Shown here: positions 14,527 to 22,008 of the stretch, piece by piece | Numbering within the stretch: position 1 is the stretch's first letter | Layout: each line of letters begins with the position of its first letter | From: Mycoemilia scoparia | Lineage: Eukaryota > Kickxellomycota > Kickxellomycetes > Kickxellales > Kickxellaceae | Assembly (NCBI GenBank): GCA_027575805.1 | Contig: JANBPU010000001.1 | Span: 558,001-622,000, forward strand | Direction: 5' to 3' | Length of the DNA stretch: 64,000 bases | Notes under the pieces: generated by a model | What the model saw: only the letters and a program-made list of their open reading frames with translations | What the model was told of the DNA's origin: nothing | Database searches by the model: none | Position numbers and translations under genes: made by a program

Positions 14527-17500
14527 TTAGTTATACTTGTCAATACTATGGACCATCAGTCGAGGTGCAATGTTCATTGCCATGAGCTCTTGGAACAGAA
14601 GTTTGCAAGCATATGGAATGTGAACCTGACTGATCTGTGTCTTATTTCTACAAGCTCTACACTCAAACTGATTTTTCTTGAGGCTAGCGACTGCCATCAA
14701 ACCACATCGGTCACAAACATGGACACGGTAGGCGTCACTAGCATCGAACAAACGTTCTTTTAGGAAGCTAGCGACACCATGAGAAATCATACAGTTGTGC
14801 GCAACCACTCCGTTGGCAATAAAGTTATGGTTCTGGGACACTTGAATGTCATAAACTTTGCTCTTGCCCTCAAGCGAAGATACATTCACCGCCTCCAGAT
14901 ACATCCTGAATTGAGATTTGACAGCACTTTCTGTATATTCGTTAAACCATTCTTTGGCACCAATAGATGAAAGATGACTGTCAAAGTTCACCAGTTTGTT
15001 GGGATTTGTCTCATTTTGATCTCCAGAGTGACGGCCACAATAATATTTGTGCAGTATACCAAATTCAGGGGTTTGAGTATCAAGCTTCTCGTCCGAAGAA
15101 ACAACAATGGCCTTGTCTTTAGATGCCTCGCTTCCGGAAATACCACTGAACAATATCTGTTGTAGCTGTTTATAAGAAGCAATAGCTTCTATTTGGGCGG
15201 ACTTGACAATGTTGTGGCTAACACCAACAGTCATGTGGAATAGACAAACATCTCTTTCCTTCAGGACAATTGTGGTTCCTTCACTATTATCAGTTTTATC
15301 TTGTAGCGTAAGCGTGTCTTGGTTAAATCCGAGGATCGACATTATATAGGTAAGGTCAGCCAAAGAAGTGGCAGAGTTCTGATTTGACTTGAAGACAAAT
15401 GGAACATCAAGGTGACCATCTTCAATGGTGATGGCCTTGGAGGTACCCAAAGCCATTCCTCCAAATAGACCGCTGGCAAGCTCGCGAAGAAGCACTGGGT
15501 TGGCAGCTTCGGTTACTGATCTAACAGTTAGAGAACCCTTCTGACCAATAGTCGAGATGAGTGGCTCTACTGTGGGGATTTGTATATAGTAGCTTCCATC
15601 CTTTTCAATCTGTGTAGCTGCACCACAGAATAGCTTGACATCTCTCAGAATAGATTCAGAGTCATATGAATTTTCAGCAGTAAATACAGCCGACTCATCT
15701 CCACTTATGTCCTGTTGGGCCAAAATGCGACCAACAAGGCGGTAGGCGGCACAAAGTTTTTGATAGGTTGCAAAACTGCTTACACCGATGGTCTTCATAT
15801 CATTGATGAAATCCACTGAGGGTGGCTGAATACTCTTTACAACCTTGTGTCCAGTCAGGTCCGTTGCAGCCCTCCACTGGTTATCGCTGCAAAGGAATGG
15901 ATGGTCCTTTGTGCATGTAACAAATGTTCCGTCATGGAAGATGACCTTAACACACTCTTGCTCTCCTTTATCCGCAAACCCGACAATACTATCGCTTTCA
16001 ATAGATTTTTTCTCTTGATTGAATGAAATCAGGTCTTGATTTTGCATATCGATGAGTGAATCGAGACGAACCTTAGCATGTGGTAAAGATATAGCCATAT
16101 CTCCCGTCAAACAATCACGTTCCATCTCACCGAAACGAAGACCACCATCACGCGACCTACCTTCGACAGGCTGTCTAGTCAAAATCTGGACGGGACCTCT
16201 GGCACGCGAGTTACCGGTCCATACAGGGATACCATTACGACGAACGTAGAATACGTGACCAGGAACCTCAATGCAGTGAACTGTTCCAGTGTAGCCAATA
16301 ATTTGCTCAATTTCATCACTGGATAGATGTGTACCTGGTTGGTTGACTTCTGGTTTGAGAGCATCGGGATTATCCAGGATAGTCACGCACATTTCTTGGT
16401 TGTCGTAAGACTTGATGTTTGCAGCCAAACCACCATGAAGGCATAATCTCTGGATATCATCAGCCATGCAACTTGTAGTGATGATGTGGGTATTCTTAGT
16501 CATAGACTCTGCTTGAGCCAAGATCATACCATCAAGCAAAGCAGAACACTGTGGTGCACTTAGAGCCCAAACCCATGATGGAAGTCTACGAGCATTGAGG
16601 TCAGATGAAACTGTTTGAGATACAAGTTCAAAAACTGCTTCATTGAAAATCGACAGAGCAGTTTTATCTATGTGCTCAAATGTAACACCAAGTTGTGATA
16701 GGAGCTTGGAAATAACATCCCTAGAGTGTAAGGACTTTGTGCTAATTGAGATAGAGGTCGATGCTTGCTCGTACCCTGATAACAAGCATGCGCCCAAAAT
16801 AGATAGCCATACGTTTTCGGTTTGCGAGTCCTGATCCTCAAATAGTGAAAGCTTGGCCCGAGGAGCATTCCATTGGGCATTTTTCTGGTAAGAAACATGT
16901 TTTCTCCACAGCCTGTCAGCACGGCAAAGTTCATAATCCTCAGATAGATCCGAACCTGGTGTTTTGTTGACCCACATGCGATGGTTCAGGGTGGTGACAA
17001 GGCTGATTTGAGGATTTTCAATCTGATACATTGGCCCATTGTGATCATAGTTAAACAGCTGCTTGGGCCTTTCGTAAGATAATACGCCCCCCTTTTGAAG
17101 AGTTGCCACACGCTCGGCTTTGCTTAGCTCAGTTATAGGTTTCCAGCCATTCTCAGTAAGGACCTCGTGATCTGGAGTAAGACAATGTATCTTATCGTCC
17201 ACCATGTGCTTCAGACGTTGGTAATAAGTAGGACCAAGGAAGATTTGGGCAGCTAGTTTACGACCGGTGTGTCCGTTATACATGACCTCAAAACCTCTGG
17301 GTTGGTAGTTGCGGGCAAGCAGCTCTCGAGAAATAGCTTCTACAGTGACATTGGTGAATGGCGTGGCATCACCTTCCAAGCCAATGAGTGAGGATAATTT
17401 TGACAGCAAACACTCAATCAAGTGCCCAATTGTCATACGAGATGGAATAGCGTGGGGATTGACAATGAGGTCAGGGACGATGCCTTCGATTGTGAAGGGC

Positions 17501-20500
17501 ATATCTTCGGTTCTGTATGTCATACCAATTGTACCTTTTTGTCCGTGACGGGACGCAAATTTATCACCAATCTGGGGAACACGTGTTGAACGTACACGAA
17601 CCTTAACAAAACGCACACCGTCGCCATTAGTTGTAATCATGACTCGGTCAATGATACCATGTTCAGTTGATCGGAGAGGCTTGGAAGCATCGATTTTGGT
17701 ATGGTTTTTCGTTCTCTGGCCTAGTTCAAGAGACTCGGCAGGAATGGGAGTGGTCTTGCCGATGATAATGTCATCACCAGTAACTCGAGTACCAGGGGCA
17801 ACAAGCCCATCTTCCTCCAACTTTTCATAGGTTCCGTGCTTAAGACGAAGAGTAGTCTCACGGGTAGGCTTTTCAAATCTACCTATACTGTCACCGCCCT
17901 CTCTATTCTCTTCGTCTTGGTATGATCTGAAGTATAAGGATCTGAAAAGGCCTCGATCAATGGAGGATTGGTTCATAATGGTAGAATCCTCCTGGTTGTA
18001 TCCTGAATAGCAGAGAATGCCGACAATGGCATTCTGACCAGCTGGGAGTTCACAGAACTTGAGGTATTCCATCGCTCTTGTGGTAGCGAGAGGCTTTTGG
18101 GGATAATAGAGAATATTCGACAAAGTGTCCATACGAAGCTGGTAGTTAGTAAGCATAATTCCCATCGCTTGCTTACCCATAGCAGATTGGTAGGTATTAC
18201 GTGGTGACTGGTTGTGATCGGGGAATGGAATAATTGAAGCACAAATACCTAGAATCATTGATGGATGGATTTCACAATGCGTCCAAGAATTGATATAGAT
18301 ATTACGCTTGGATCTGATACGGAATGAGGGATCCGCTGGTTTGCTTGGCTCGATTCCTGATTTGTGGTAATCATAGCTTTCGCGCAGCTCTTCTGGGGTC
18401 ATACATATCATGGCTGTTTCCTCTTCTTCAGCATCAAGGTACTCGATAAGGCCGTCACTGATCAGTGAATGCCATCCATCACCTTCATCTTCCTGGAATT
18501 CCTGCTCCTCTAGCCTTTGCACATGCTCAGGGCGTACCCTTAGTTGTAGATCATCTACGACAAACAGTGGACGACAGACACGGCCCTCATCTGTATAAAT
18601 ACGCAGCTCCTTTTCGCGAATGTCACGCACAATGGAAATGTCGAACGATAGAGATGTTTCGCGGCGCATTTGCCTCAGCTGAGGAACAAGTTTGTTTACC
18701 TCTCTATGGATGCCTAGCCACACACCATTGACAAAGATCTTGGTCGCGTCTGAAATGTTGGTTACCTGAAGTTCCTCGAGGTTTTCCATGCCCCAATCGT
18801 TTAGGAAATCGTGAATTGGCTGGGCACTGCATGAAATTGTAACGTGTGCCATCAACGCAAGGTTCTTGACCAGACCACATGCCTGTCCTTCTGGGGTCTC
18901 AGCCGGACAGTTATGGCTCACAATGCTGTTTGCAAAGAATGAGTGGTTCTTTGAGACTGTGTTGAAGTCGAAAACGGCCTCTGGCTCAATTTCCTCGACA
19001 GTCACTATGGGACTCCACACAAAGGAAGGAGATTCGCTTGAGTAAAGCTTTTGGAATTCGTCCCATCCCATGAAGCTATTGGGACTGACTGTGGTGGTAC
19101 TCTGCTTATTGAAGTGCTCACGCATCTTGAGGTACTCAACAGGTGCAGCGCTGCGGCGCGACTTGTATGCAGAATAACGATACCCGACACGCTCATAGAA
19201 TGCAACGATGTTGTCACCAGAGAGCCCAACTTGAACAAGAGCAGAAAACTTGTTATTGACTGTAAAGCGAGATACCGAAGCTGAAATATCAACGTCAGCT
19301 AGGAGCTTGACGATCTGACTAGCGTATGTCTCCGTAGTGGGTAATAGCTCCTCAGTGCAAGGCAGTTGTAGGGGATCCATACAAGCACTCGACTTGGCCT
19401 GGCTCCTTGTGATGGAAATATAGCAGCCATCGCCGCCAAATAGCGCTGCAAGGAATTCACGCTTAACAAGGACTGGGGCACCACAAAGCCACTGTGGCAA
19501 AGTGCGAGCCTGGTCATGCCTGTTACCACAACGTCCTCCAAGCCCATAAAGGAAGGCACAAATATCAGCAGCAAGGCTCAGGCGCTTATGTGATCCCTTG
19601 CTATTTACAACCATTTCCTCTACAGTACCTGGTTCGAAACCAAGGGTGGCCAAGTCGCAGTTTACAGCAGCAGCATCAGCGTCTTCCCCAAGGAATAGGC
19701 CACCGCTCCATCTGCCCCCACATATGTCAAGATTTCCAGCGCATTGGACAGCACCGAGAAGGCGGGTTGCGGCCAGCAATTTAGGAAGGGGCAACTCAGC
19801 GTCCACTAATCCGAGTTTCTGTAGACGTGCGAGAGTTGCGGCTGGGGGTGCGTTCTCCAGACGGTCATAATCAGCAGCTGCCAAACGGAGCAAATAACTC
19901 TCAGGTGGGGGGATATAGGCAGGCTGTGGGGACACCAACAGGGCGTGTTTGGCGGCGTTGAGGTCGCCAACATGGATCCAGGCAGGTTTGCCAACTTCGC
20001 CAGTTTGAGGATCTATCGGTGCAGCGCGCAATGGGTGCTCTGGTGTGGCCTTGATGATGCGCCCGTCGGCCATAGTGACGCGAAGTAGGCGCTCGGGCAT
20101 CTTGCGGAACCAATGATCAATGGCACTTCCTGTGACAGAAAGAGTGTCAGGGTTGATGGTTGCTACGCGCGAACCGTCAGCCAAGTCACAGATTCGGGCA
20201 ACGTCCATACCATTGTCCAATACCACTTCGGTATCAGCAGTAACGCAAACAAGACCCCAATGCGTATTGTGGAGCTGGCGTGGTTTAGCAATTTTACCGT
20301 CACGGCCAATTGGCGTGTTGCAACGACGAAGATGTGAAAGCGTTGAGGCAAATGTGTATCTGTTAAGTACCTGGGAGACACCAGCGCGAGACTGCATGGC
20401 CTTCTTTTGGTCACCCCAGTTTCCGGTTGCCAGAGAATACTTAAGGCCAGTAGTGATGGTGGTGGACTTGATGCCAATAGTGGGCCTGAACTCCCTCCCG

Positions 20501-22008
20501 CTATCAATACACTTTTGCATGTAGCGCGTCACATCCTTTGTCATTTTTCGGAATAGATTTCTAAACAGCATAGCCAAAAGAGGACCAGCCAAGTCCATTC
20601 TCTTTTTGCCATAGTGATCACGATCATCTGGGTCCTTCCGTTCAAGCGCACACATGAGCAGACGGTGTACCATGTAGCCAAAGAAAAACGCCTTGCGTGT
20701 CTCATTGTGGATCTGGGTTCCTACATGGGGCAAAAATTCTTTCTGCAAGATCTCGGTGGCATAGGCAATACGGCGATCTTTACTAATGCCAACAGCAGTA
20801 CCACGCTTTCCAATAAAGTCCAAGGCAACTTCTTTTTCCTGAATAACAAAGGCCTCCTCAATAGATGGCTTGAGGAGCTCGAGCATCTGAGTGTCATTGG
20901 GGTCATAGCAAATGTGCTCCAAGATATCCTTCGCTGATATCATACCAAGAGCCCTGAAGATAATCAAGATGGGGATCTCGGCACGAATATATGGAATTGT
21001 AGCATGTATCGTTTGGCCTGTGTCTTTTTCTATGTTCTTTGGGGTCATCTTCAAAGATAAAGGACTGGCCTGTTTGGACATTCTTTCTGCACTACTACGA
21101 ATTTCAGCAACATAGTGGGGACTTGGCAAATTCTTTTGGAAAACGAATATGGTGTTAGTCGCTATACGCTCCTGAGCAATAAGGACCTTTTCTGACCCAT
21201 TGATGATGAAATAGCCACCCTGATCATATGGACACTCATCAAGGTGGTATAAATCTTCATCCTTGAGCTTGTACAGTAGACAGTAATTTGAACGCAACAT
21301 AATTGGAATTTTTCCAACAAAGATCTTCTGTGGGCCGCCATCATCTGTGTGTTCGGTTTCCATATACATATCAGCAACAGACGTTACATTTTGGTTTTCA
21401 GGGTGACTAGGGTCTGCAACTTTAACCTCTCTACTGAAATCGATCAGCAATGGCGAGGCGTATGTAAGATTCCTTAAACGGGCTGCATGGGGGTTCATAA
21501 GTTCTGGCGTGCCGGCCTCAGTTGAACTGGGTCTGGATAGATATGCTTGGCCAAACTTCAAGTGGTGGCGTTTCTGTTGTTACATTATCGTTTGAGCATA
21601 GGATTAGAAAAAGAGCTGTTATAAGCCTACCAGTACAGAACTCCAGTTGAAACAATATACAGGCCTGTACTTACCAAGAGCTCGCGTCCATTATTCCCAG
21701 GGACCGAAGTCTGTAACACGAGATTTTTATTTTCATCTATGACTTGCTGCAAAGTCCTGTCAATGAAATCATTGTACGAACTCAACTGCTGGTACACCAA
21801 GCCGTGCTCGTTGAAATAGCGCGTAATAATTGTCCAGCATTGGTCCTGGGTAATATCTTCACTTTCCTCTTGCTCATACGCGACTATTTTGTTATAATAG
21901 TTCAATAAGGCCAAAATAAGCAAACCTTCAGTTAAGGATTCATATTAGTAAGAAACTTTAAATAAATTTCTCCATACCCTGATCTTCATAATATTCCTCT
22001 GCCTCCAT
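14527..22008 (-). CDS. RPB2: RNA polymerase II second-largest subunit with three in-frame inteins
   Basis: Three exons (21978..22008, 21675..21883, 14527..21573) encode a 2428-aa precursor. Removing the inteins leaves 1217 aa, close to the usual fungal Rpb2 (about 1220). The start gives [20 protein letters not shown]. Extein landmarks in order are [81 protein letters not shown], and [10 protein letters not shown]. The C-terminal zinc site is CDRCG...CRACRNK, and [13 protein letters not shown] lies at the end. Rpb2 forms half of the polymerase II cleft. The three inserts each start with Cys, end with Asn before a Cys or Ser, and restore a conserved extein sequence exactly on removal. Their sites are listed separately. 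No frameshift is seen. Confidence 0.97.
14794..16113 (-). other. Intein 3 in RPB2 (440 aa), before CMISHG
   Basis: The insert lies between [10 protein letters not shown] and [15 protein letters not shown]. It starts [10 protein letters not shown], block B is [14 protein letters not shown], and it ends [19 protein letters not shown] followed by HN, with Cys as the +1 residue. The two LAGLIDADG-like helices read [14 protein letters not shown] and [12 protein letters not shown]. The Asp/Glu expected at the end of each is replaced by Gln and Met. Splicing looks functional; homing endonuclease activity does not. Confidence 0.92.
16210..17184 (-). other. Intein 2 in RPB2 (325 aa), before SRARGPVQ
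   Basis: The insert lies between HMVDDKIH and [14 protein letters not shown]. It starts [14 protein letters not shown], block B is [11 protein letters not shown], and it ends [16 protein letters not shown] with Ser as the +1 residue. The penultimate His of most inteins is Gly here, a known variation. At 325 aa it is the shortest of the three. Its endonuclease-like segments (LGACLLSGY and [14 protein letters not shown]) lack the catalytic acids, so the endonuclease is probably dead. Confidence 0.92.
18910..20247 (-). other. Intein 1 in RPB2 (446 aa), before CPAETPEG
   Basis: The insert splits HWGLV from CPAETPEG. The N-terminal splice block is [10 protein letters not shown] and block B is [14 protein letters not shown] (T-x-x-H). 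The C-terminal block is [20 protein letters not shown] followed by HN, with Cys as the +1 residue. The central region resembles a LAGLIDADG endonuclease. The first dodecapeptide-like segment is [13 protein letters not shown], where the expected acidic residue is missing. The second is [13 protein letters not shown], which keeps an Asp. Splicing residues look complete; endonuclease activity is doubtful. Part of it is clearly more G+C-rich than the host gene. Confidence 0.93.

Follow-up and report, generated by a model that had tools for sequence, protein, structure and literature searches.

Three inteins in the RPB2 gene of the fungus Mycoemilia scoparia, in a genome with at least 20 inteins

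Introduction

How can a fungus make a functional RNA polymerase II subunit from a gene in which about half of the precursor is foreign to that subunit? This question is raised by the RPB2 gene of Mycoemilia scoparia (Kickxellomycotina, Kickxellales, Kickxellaceae), located on the minus strand (22008..14527) of a 64,000-nucleotide stretch of contig JANBPU010000001.1, called here the window. A preliminary description of this locus read three inserts in RPB2 as inteins. We report that the three inserts are inteins, that they appear to fill all three named RPB2 insertion sites, and that the same genome carries at least 20 inteins in nine genes.

Results

Structure of the gene and of its precursor

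The RPB2 gene extends from an ATG at 22008 to a stop at 14527. The predicted product of 2428 amino acids (aa) is identical, letter for letter, to the deposited protein P0001, "DNA-dependent RNA polymerase II [Mycoemilia scoparia]", and Pfam recognizes in it Rpb2 domains 1 to 7 together with the intein splicing domain. The features are the following, with exons and introns taken from a splice model that reproduces P0001 exactly.

21978..22008, minus strand: exon 1, with the ATG start at 22008
21884..21977, minus strand: intron 1, 94 nucleotides, GTATGG..ATAG
21675..21883, minus strand: exon 2
21574..21674, minus strand: intron 2, 101 nucleotides, GTAAGT..ACAG
14527..21573, minus strand: exon 3, 2348 codons plus stop, carrying all three inteins
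18910..20247, minus strand: intein c, 446 aa, precursor residues 523-968, RPB2-c site (fork), above the cut-offs of PF14890, TIGR01445 and TIGR01443
17185..18909, minus strand: middle extein, 575 aa, one continuous match to solved Rpb2 chains
16210..17184, minus strand: intein b, 325 aa, residues 1544-1868, at DDKIH/SRARGP, RPB2-b site (hybrid binding), ending in TGN
16114..16209, minus strand: extein of 32 aa separating inteins b and a
14794..16113, minus strand: intein a, 440 aa, residues 1901-2340, at GEMERD/CMISHG, RPB2-a site (anchor)
14527..14793, minus strand: C-terminal extein, 88 aa, plus stop

Coordinates, reading frame and identity to P0001 all agree with the three in-frame inserts of 446, 325 and 440 aa that had been described. 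Their removal leaves an extein of 1217 aa, as had also been stated, the inteins making up 1211 of the 2428 residues, i.e. about half. In the best stretch of a phmmer comparison with the Rpb2 chain 1i3q_B, precursor residues 969-1544 correspond to chain residues 523-1105; the match begins at the first residue past intein c and stops one residue inside intein b. Rfam and tRNA scans of the window gave no matches.

The three inserts are inteins

The three inserts are located in frame at conserved sites, where many homologues have no insert. As the preliminary description had noted, each starts with Cys, contains a TxxH block (ATPEH, TTLNH and CTKDH) and ends with Asn before Cys or Ser (HN/C for c, GN/S for b and HN/C for a). 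The inserts were then scanned alone with three intein models, whose curated cut-offs are 35.8 bits for Intein_splicing (PF14890), 24.5 for intein_Nterm and 15.6 for intein_Cterm. Inserts c and a passed all of them, with 40.0 and 58.5 bits for Intein_splicing, 38.3 and 26.1 for intein_Nterm, and 17.7 and 36.8 for intein_Cterm, respectively. Among sequences of solved structures, intein a matched several inteins (best E 1.3e-8) and intein c gave a weak match (E 0.003), while the only match of intein b was to the PI-MtuI (RecA) intein and was shifted in register (its residues 3-38 against 70-106, E 0.002).

The identity of b as an intein rests on the allelic insert of Spiromyces rather than on the curated models: the two, located at the same site, are 39% identical over their full length (354 aa in Spiromyces). 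Profiles built from inserts of 200-650 aa, which retained 83 of 93 site-b and 20 of 23 site-c rows, matched each other with an E value of 2e-8, and the site-c profile matched the site-a profile with an E value of 3.6e-42, the c and a families being thus distantly related. Alignment of the extein with that of related fungi, proposed earlier as a check, revealed allelic inserts in Coemansia, Spiromyces and chytrids, with the extein running on at both sides. Frame, boundaries, residues, homology and allelic sites all being demonstrated, the three RPB2 inserts are inteins, as first proposed; their protein splicing is predicted from sequence.

All three named RPB2 sites appear to be filled

Goodwin et al. 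2006 (PMC1635734) defined each of the three RPB2 sites from a different organism. In their alignment, site a is at position 1696, site b at 1664 and site c at 843, and the Dictyostelium RPC2 site is at 853. In M. scoparia RPB2 the b and a sites are separated by 32 residues, the same spacing as between positions 1664 and 1696. Site b (DDKIH/S) is allelic to that of Sas RPB2, the Spiromyces aspiralis insert (P0066) having the size of 354 aa listed in PMC1635734. At site c, the Batrachochytrium dendrobatidis protein P0015 carries at the aligned position an insert of 488 aa, again the listed size, and a Cys (CGLVKN) located ten residues past this site would fit the Dictyostelium RPC2 site. Site a is assigned by spacing alone, 32 residues past b as for the RPB2-a group (Cre RPB2). 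Given this spacing and the known insert sizes at b and c, all three named sites appear to be filled in one M. scoparia gene. For none of the inserts is the kind of element or the site new; as far as tested, the sites are those of the RPB2 inteins of Goodwin et al., found there in different organisms and here in a single gene. In the same paper the c site falls in the fork, the b site in the hybrid-binding domain and the a site in the anchor domain, all lying at the cleft or at the interface with RPB1, so that excision should be needed before polymerase assembly.

To place these inteins among their relatives, we pooled 207 different proteins from three protein searches, one of which gave the best 120 of 182 matches and another scored the 7998 candidates sharing most words. 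Inserts were present at the c site in 23 of these proteins, at the b site in 93 and at the a site in 62, and M. scoparia RPB2 was the only one of the 207 with all three sites filled. Ten other matches had exteins more than 60% identical to that of M. scoparia. Nine of them carry a c insert, two of which (P0003 and P0011) do not extend to the b and a sites; the tenth, from Spiromyces, the closest relative, is a partial sequence starting past site c, with inserts at both b and a. Intein c is 57-68% identical to the c-site inteins of Coemansia RPB2 and RPC2, and intein a is 33% identical to the a-site insert of Spiromyces. The latter, 462 aa long, lies next to the known RPB2-b intein of S. aspiralis and is not listed by Goodwin et al. 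(PMC1635734).

In a tree of the splice regions (54 rows, with long branches flagged by the program and several forks supported below 95), intein c groups with Coemansia and chytrid inteins, intein b with Spiromyces and environmental b inteins, and intein a with Spiromyces and environmental a inteins. The possibility that one intein was duplicated within RPB2 was rejected, as each of the three clusters with its allelic counterparts rather than with the other two. In a 67-row tree limited to inteins of 250-480 aa, intein b is nested among environmental, probably viral, site-b inteins, the supports of the nearest branches being weak (62, 12, 75 and 80); its nearest neighbour differs in the 54-row tree (support 97/91). 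Scans of viral contigs gave 9 loci with intein b as query, with mixed hosts at the boundaries, and 36 with intein a, from which no inference was drawn.

Other RPB2-like proteins with several inserts

The preliminary description considered three inteins in one RPB2 to be rare and possibly undescribed for this species. We counted inserts of at least 130 aa in the 173 RPB2-like matches with enough coverage, and found three to five in 49 of them, M. scoparia RPB2 included. The exteins of the other 48 are at most 49% identical to that of M. scoparia, for which reason these proteins probably belong to giant viruses; one of the multi-insert matches was deposited as viral metagenome. The claim of rarity thus has to be narrowed: an RPB2 with three inteins is not unique, but apparently new for a fungus. 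Like M. scoparia, these environmental proteins have several inserts per gene, sites b and a included; they also use sites at about 526, 756, 763, 974 and 1008 (extein numbering), and none of those collected has c, b and a together. Up to five inserts, some at further conserved sites, were observed in individual environmental proteins (P0062, P0067 and others).

Conservation and mobility of the RPB2 inteins

We compared the N-terminal, middle and C-terminal parts of each intein with those of an allelic relative. The identities were 51/28/56% for intein a and 56/33/58% for intein b, both against Spiromyces, and 83/60/80% for intein c against Coemansia P0005. Splice regions are therefore more conserved than the middle part, which fits inserts held by the need to splice. 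In LAGLIDADG blocks picked by eye, intein c retains one of the two catalytic acidic residues and inteins b and a none, although both are present in the majority consensus of site a (ten aligned rows) and in a Phlyctochytrium site-c intein. The three RPB2 inteins are thus likely immobile and retained because splicing is essential, their loss of mobility being deduced from these residues.

A search of the M. scoparia genome showed one RPB2 locus, one RPC2 (71-74% identical to Coemansia Rpc2) and one RPA2-like locus. No c insert is present in the RPC2 or the RPA2-like gene, both matches crossing that site uninterrupted.

A precursor with three cis-splicing inteins

In the explanation that we favour, with a probability of about 0.93 for the whole, a single Rpb2 precursor of 2428 aa with three independent cis-splicing inteins would be translated, and each insert would most likely be excised by the standard intein route, giving a mature Rpb2 of 1217 aa. 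This route consists of an N-S acyl shift at Cys1, transesterification to the Cys or Ser at position +1, cyclisation of the terminal Asn and an S-N or O-N shift. The three allelic lineages would have reached sites c, b and a separately, each formerly mobile by its own LAGLIDADG homing endonuclease, now apparently inactive. The inserts have probably become fixed and persist since RNA polymerase II would be disabled if excision failed. They belong to a genome-wide total of at least 20 inteins, whose families have apparently spread to paralogous sites and new genes; this history of transfer is deduced from sequence comparison.

Several observations weigh against this explanation. The profile scan, which supported the intein reading for c and a, did not do so for b: its intein_Nterm score of 19.4 bits is under the cut-off of 24.5, and a Pfam scan at an E value of 0.1 gave no match. 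In addition, Gly precedes the terminal Asn of b; such Gly-Asn ends are known in other inteins (Goodwin et al. 2006, PMC1635734). The verdict on the endonucleases depends on motif positions chosen by eye. Finally, a second RPB2 copy is possible, since the own-genome search scores best candidates only.

The alternative that best survives is that one or more of the inserts no longer splice, the cell using a partly processed polymerase or another RPB2 copy. The inactive look of all three endonucleases and the weak scores of b against the intein models would fit such a decay. However, every nucleophile is in place, splice regions show more conservation than other parts of each insert, the limited genome search showed no second RPB2, and PMC1635734 locates the sites at the active cleft or the interface with RPB1, so that we judge this alternative very unlikely. 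Removal of the inserts from the mRNA as spliceosomal introns, without any precursor protein being made, is still less probable. The RPB2 model does contain two 5′ introns, but no GT/GC-AG pair within 24 nucleotides of the insert boundaries restores the extein, and the host frame runs open through the inserts, whose translations show intein residues. The inserts contain no stop in that frame, against 11/32, 8/28 and 17/34 in the other two; from base composition, the chance of an open frame at these lengths is 8e-9, 1e-8 and 2e-12. At the level of the sequence, the intron reading is therefore rejected. The weakest alternative, foreign inteins put into RPB2 by assembly error or contamination, finds some basis in the many environmental, probably viral, RPB2 relatives of b and a (c has a few distant ones) but can practically be dismissed: a single open frame on a 705-kb contig spans both extein and inteins, inserts b and a recur at identical sites in the family relative Spiromyces and insert c in Coemansia, and the ranges of GC content overlap, with 0.43-0.52 in the inserts and 0.43-0.55 in the exteins.

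At least 17 further inteins in the M. scoparia genome

We extended the analysis to the whole M. scoparia assembly (21.16 Mb, 466 contigs), searched with intein models, with the PRP8 domain and then with single inteins. Seventeen further inteins were found, all in open frames, which brings the total to at least 20 inteins in nine genes. This number is a lower bound, because the scans with intein models missed four genes and only best candidates were scored: genome scans with PF14890, TIGR01445 and TIGR01443 missed the inteins of PRP8, VMA1, eIF5B and dynein. The further inteins are located as follows.

C412:173828-193321, minus strand: PRP8 with ten inteins, precursor 6485 aa, extein 2342 aa
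C90:134108-135169: intein of an AAA-M41 protease, Ser1, same paralogous site as the C378 copy
C378:9936-11033: intein of an AAA-M41 protease, Ser1, same paralogous site as the C90 copy
C212; L017 4675-6246, plus strand: intein of protein kinase C (PKC), activation loop
C23; L018 4166-5383, plus strand: intein of a class I tRNA synthetase, which we take to be IleRS
C90; L050 1501-2730: intein of V-ATPase subunit A (VMA1), presumably at the VMA1 site known from yeast
C212; L051 910-2145: intein interrupting the P-loop, after GK, of an EF-Tu-type GTPase that we take to be eIF5B
C22; L054 1501-2601, minus strand: intein of cytoplasmic dynein heavy chain, P-loop of the first AAA site, after GK

The ten Prp8 inteins measure, in order, 380, 443, 418, 456, 418, 429, 463, 244, 439 and 453 aa. 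When the first 2426 residues of the precursor were compared with solved Prp8 chains, matches ended at most 3 residues from the inferred junctions; the chains support both boundaries of intein 1, the points where inteins 2 and 4 start and the point where intein 3 ends, the other junctions being placed by eye. The 244-aa intein, in which no endonuclease block was found by eye, sits at FWEKS/SGFEE, which seems to be the common Prp8-a site. The two AAA-M41 proteases, presumably of mitochondrial type, are 45% identical to each other in their inteins and 46% in their exteins (BLASTP); a scan of viral contigs found no relative of their inteins.

Position 1 is Cys in 18 and Ser in two of the 20 inteins. 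Among the 17 further inteins, Hom_end_hint exceeded the curated Pfam cut-off in nine (VMA1, eIF5B, dynein and Prp8 inteins 2, 4, 5, 6, 7 and 8) and Intein_splicing in three (both AAA proteases and PKC). The IleRS intein scored 34.5 with Pfam, under the cut-off of 35.8, and passed with intein_Nterm and intein_Cterm, while Prp8 inteins 1 and 10 stayed under the Pfam cut-off (27.4 and 31.7 against 32.1). Prp8 inteins 3 and 9, scanned alone, had no intein-model match; by profile comparison they join site b (E 1e-23), as the PKC and IleRS inteins join the site-a family (E 1e-46). Scanned alone, none of the ten Prp8 inteins matches PF14890, TIGR01445 or TIGR01443, and most are recognized by PF05203. 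Intein surveys leaning on the former three models may therefore undercount.

By eye, both catalytic acidic residues are present in none of the 19 inteins with an endonuclease region, the IleRS intein and RPB2 intein c having one; in this inspection Prp8 intein 5 gave one block only and the AAA and dynein picks were unsure. Hom_end is above its cut-off in seven inteins (VMA1, with 84.9 bits, dynein, and Prp8 inteins 1, 2, 4, 6 and 7), which speaks against a simple view of them as dead relics; the endonuclease domain is thus recognizable even where the residues are gone.

It seems to us rather probable that M. scoparia, perhaps with its order, carries more inteins than any other known lineage: at least 20, in nine mostly essential genes (ten in PRP8 and three in RPB2). 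Repeated invasion would account for them, together with movement between paralogues (RPB2/RPC2 in Coemansia, and in Mycoemilia the two AAA proteases) and entry into new genes, PKC and IleRS having received members of the RPB2-a family, and dynein and eIF5B members of the VMA1/Prp8 family. As no endonuclease looks active, the genome could no longer do without protein splicing for RNA polymerase II, the spliceosome, the V-ATPase, translation and dynein. The M. scoparia cell thus probably has to splice unusually many essential proteins before they function.

Comparison with known intein systems

Green et al. 2018 (PMC5784728) report 257 inteins in 231 eukaryotic species, their examples of several inteins per genome being Rhizophagus irregularis with two and Fusarium fujikuroi with three. 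Three filled RPB2 sites and at least 20 inteins in M. scoparia are far beyond these fungal examples. The three inteins of Salmacisia (PMC10849329) are located in Prp8, in RPB2 and in an RPB2-like gene. Prp8 is a repeated target here as in Green et al. 2019 (PMC6805012), where seven Prp8 sites, a to g, are described across all eukaryotes, against ten filled in the one M. scoparia gene; Prp8 and VMA1 inteins are alike in that paper, and here share Hom_end_hint. Many inteins per genome are also found in archaea: PMC8229266 describes three with 14 to 15, and mentions that up to 19 had been identified, compared to at least 20 in M. scoparia. We found no description of inteins in M. scoparia in a literature search that left most subscription papers outside its range.

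The interest of the triple-intein RPB2 comes from this genome-wide load. M. scoparia offers a natural system to study how a cell manages if splicing is required of its polymerase, its spliceosome, its proton pump, its motor and its translation proteins alike, and how inteins jump among paralogues. It also raises the question of a joint metal sensitivity of these proteins, as shown for the Cryptococcus Prp8 intein (PMC6805012).

Observations on related RPB2 and RPC2 genes

In Coemansia sp. RSA 1933, the c inteins of RPC2 (P0002) and RPB2 (P0003) are 97.6% identical, with exteins only 36% identical. This looks like a recent transfer of the c intein between Pol III and Pol II genes, a clear sign that inteins were once mobile in relatives of M. 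scoparia. The extein of the B. dendrobatidis protein P0015 is 59-60% identical to four Coemansia RPC2 and 39-41% identical to six RPB2, and its 488-aa c-site intein, listed as RPB2-c in PMC1635734, may lie in RPC2. Five Coemansia RPB2 proteins (P0005, P0007, P0008, P0010 and P0012) lack intein a and have Val in place of Cys at this site (GEMERDVM); they represent all collected Coemansia RPB2s that cover it. Since Val is also present in 5 environmental proteins, a link to resistance is only a thought.

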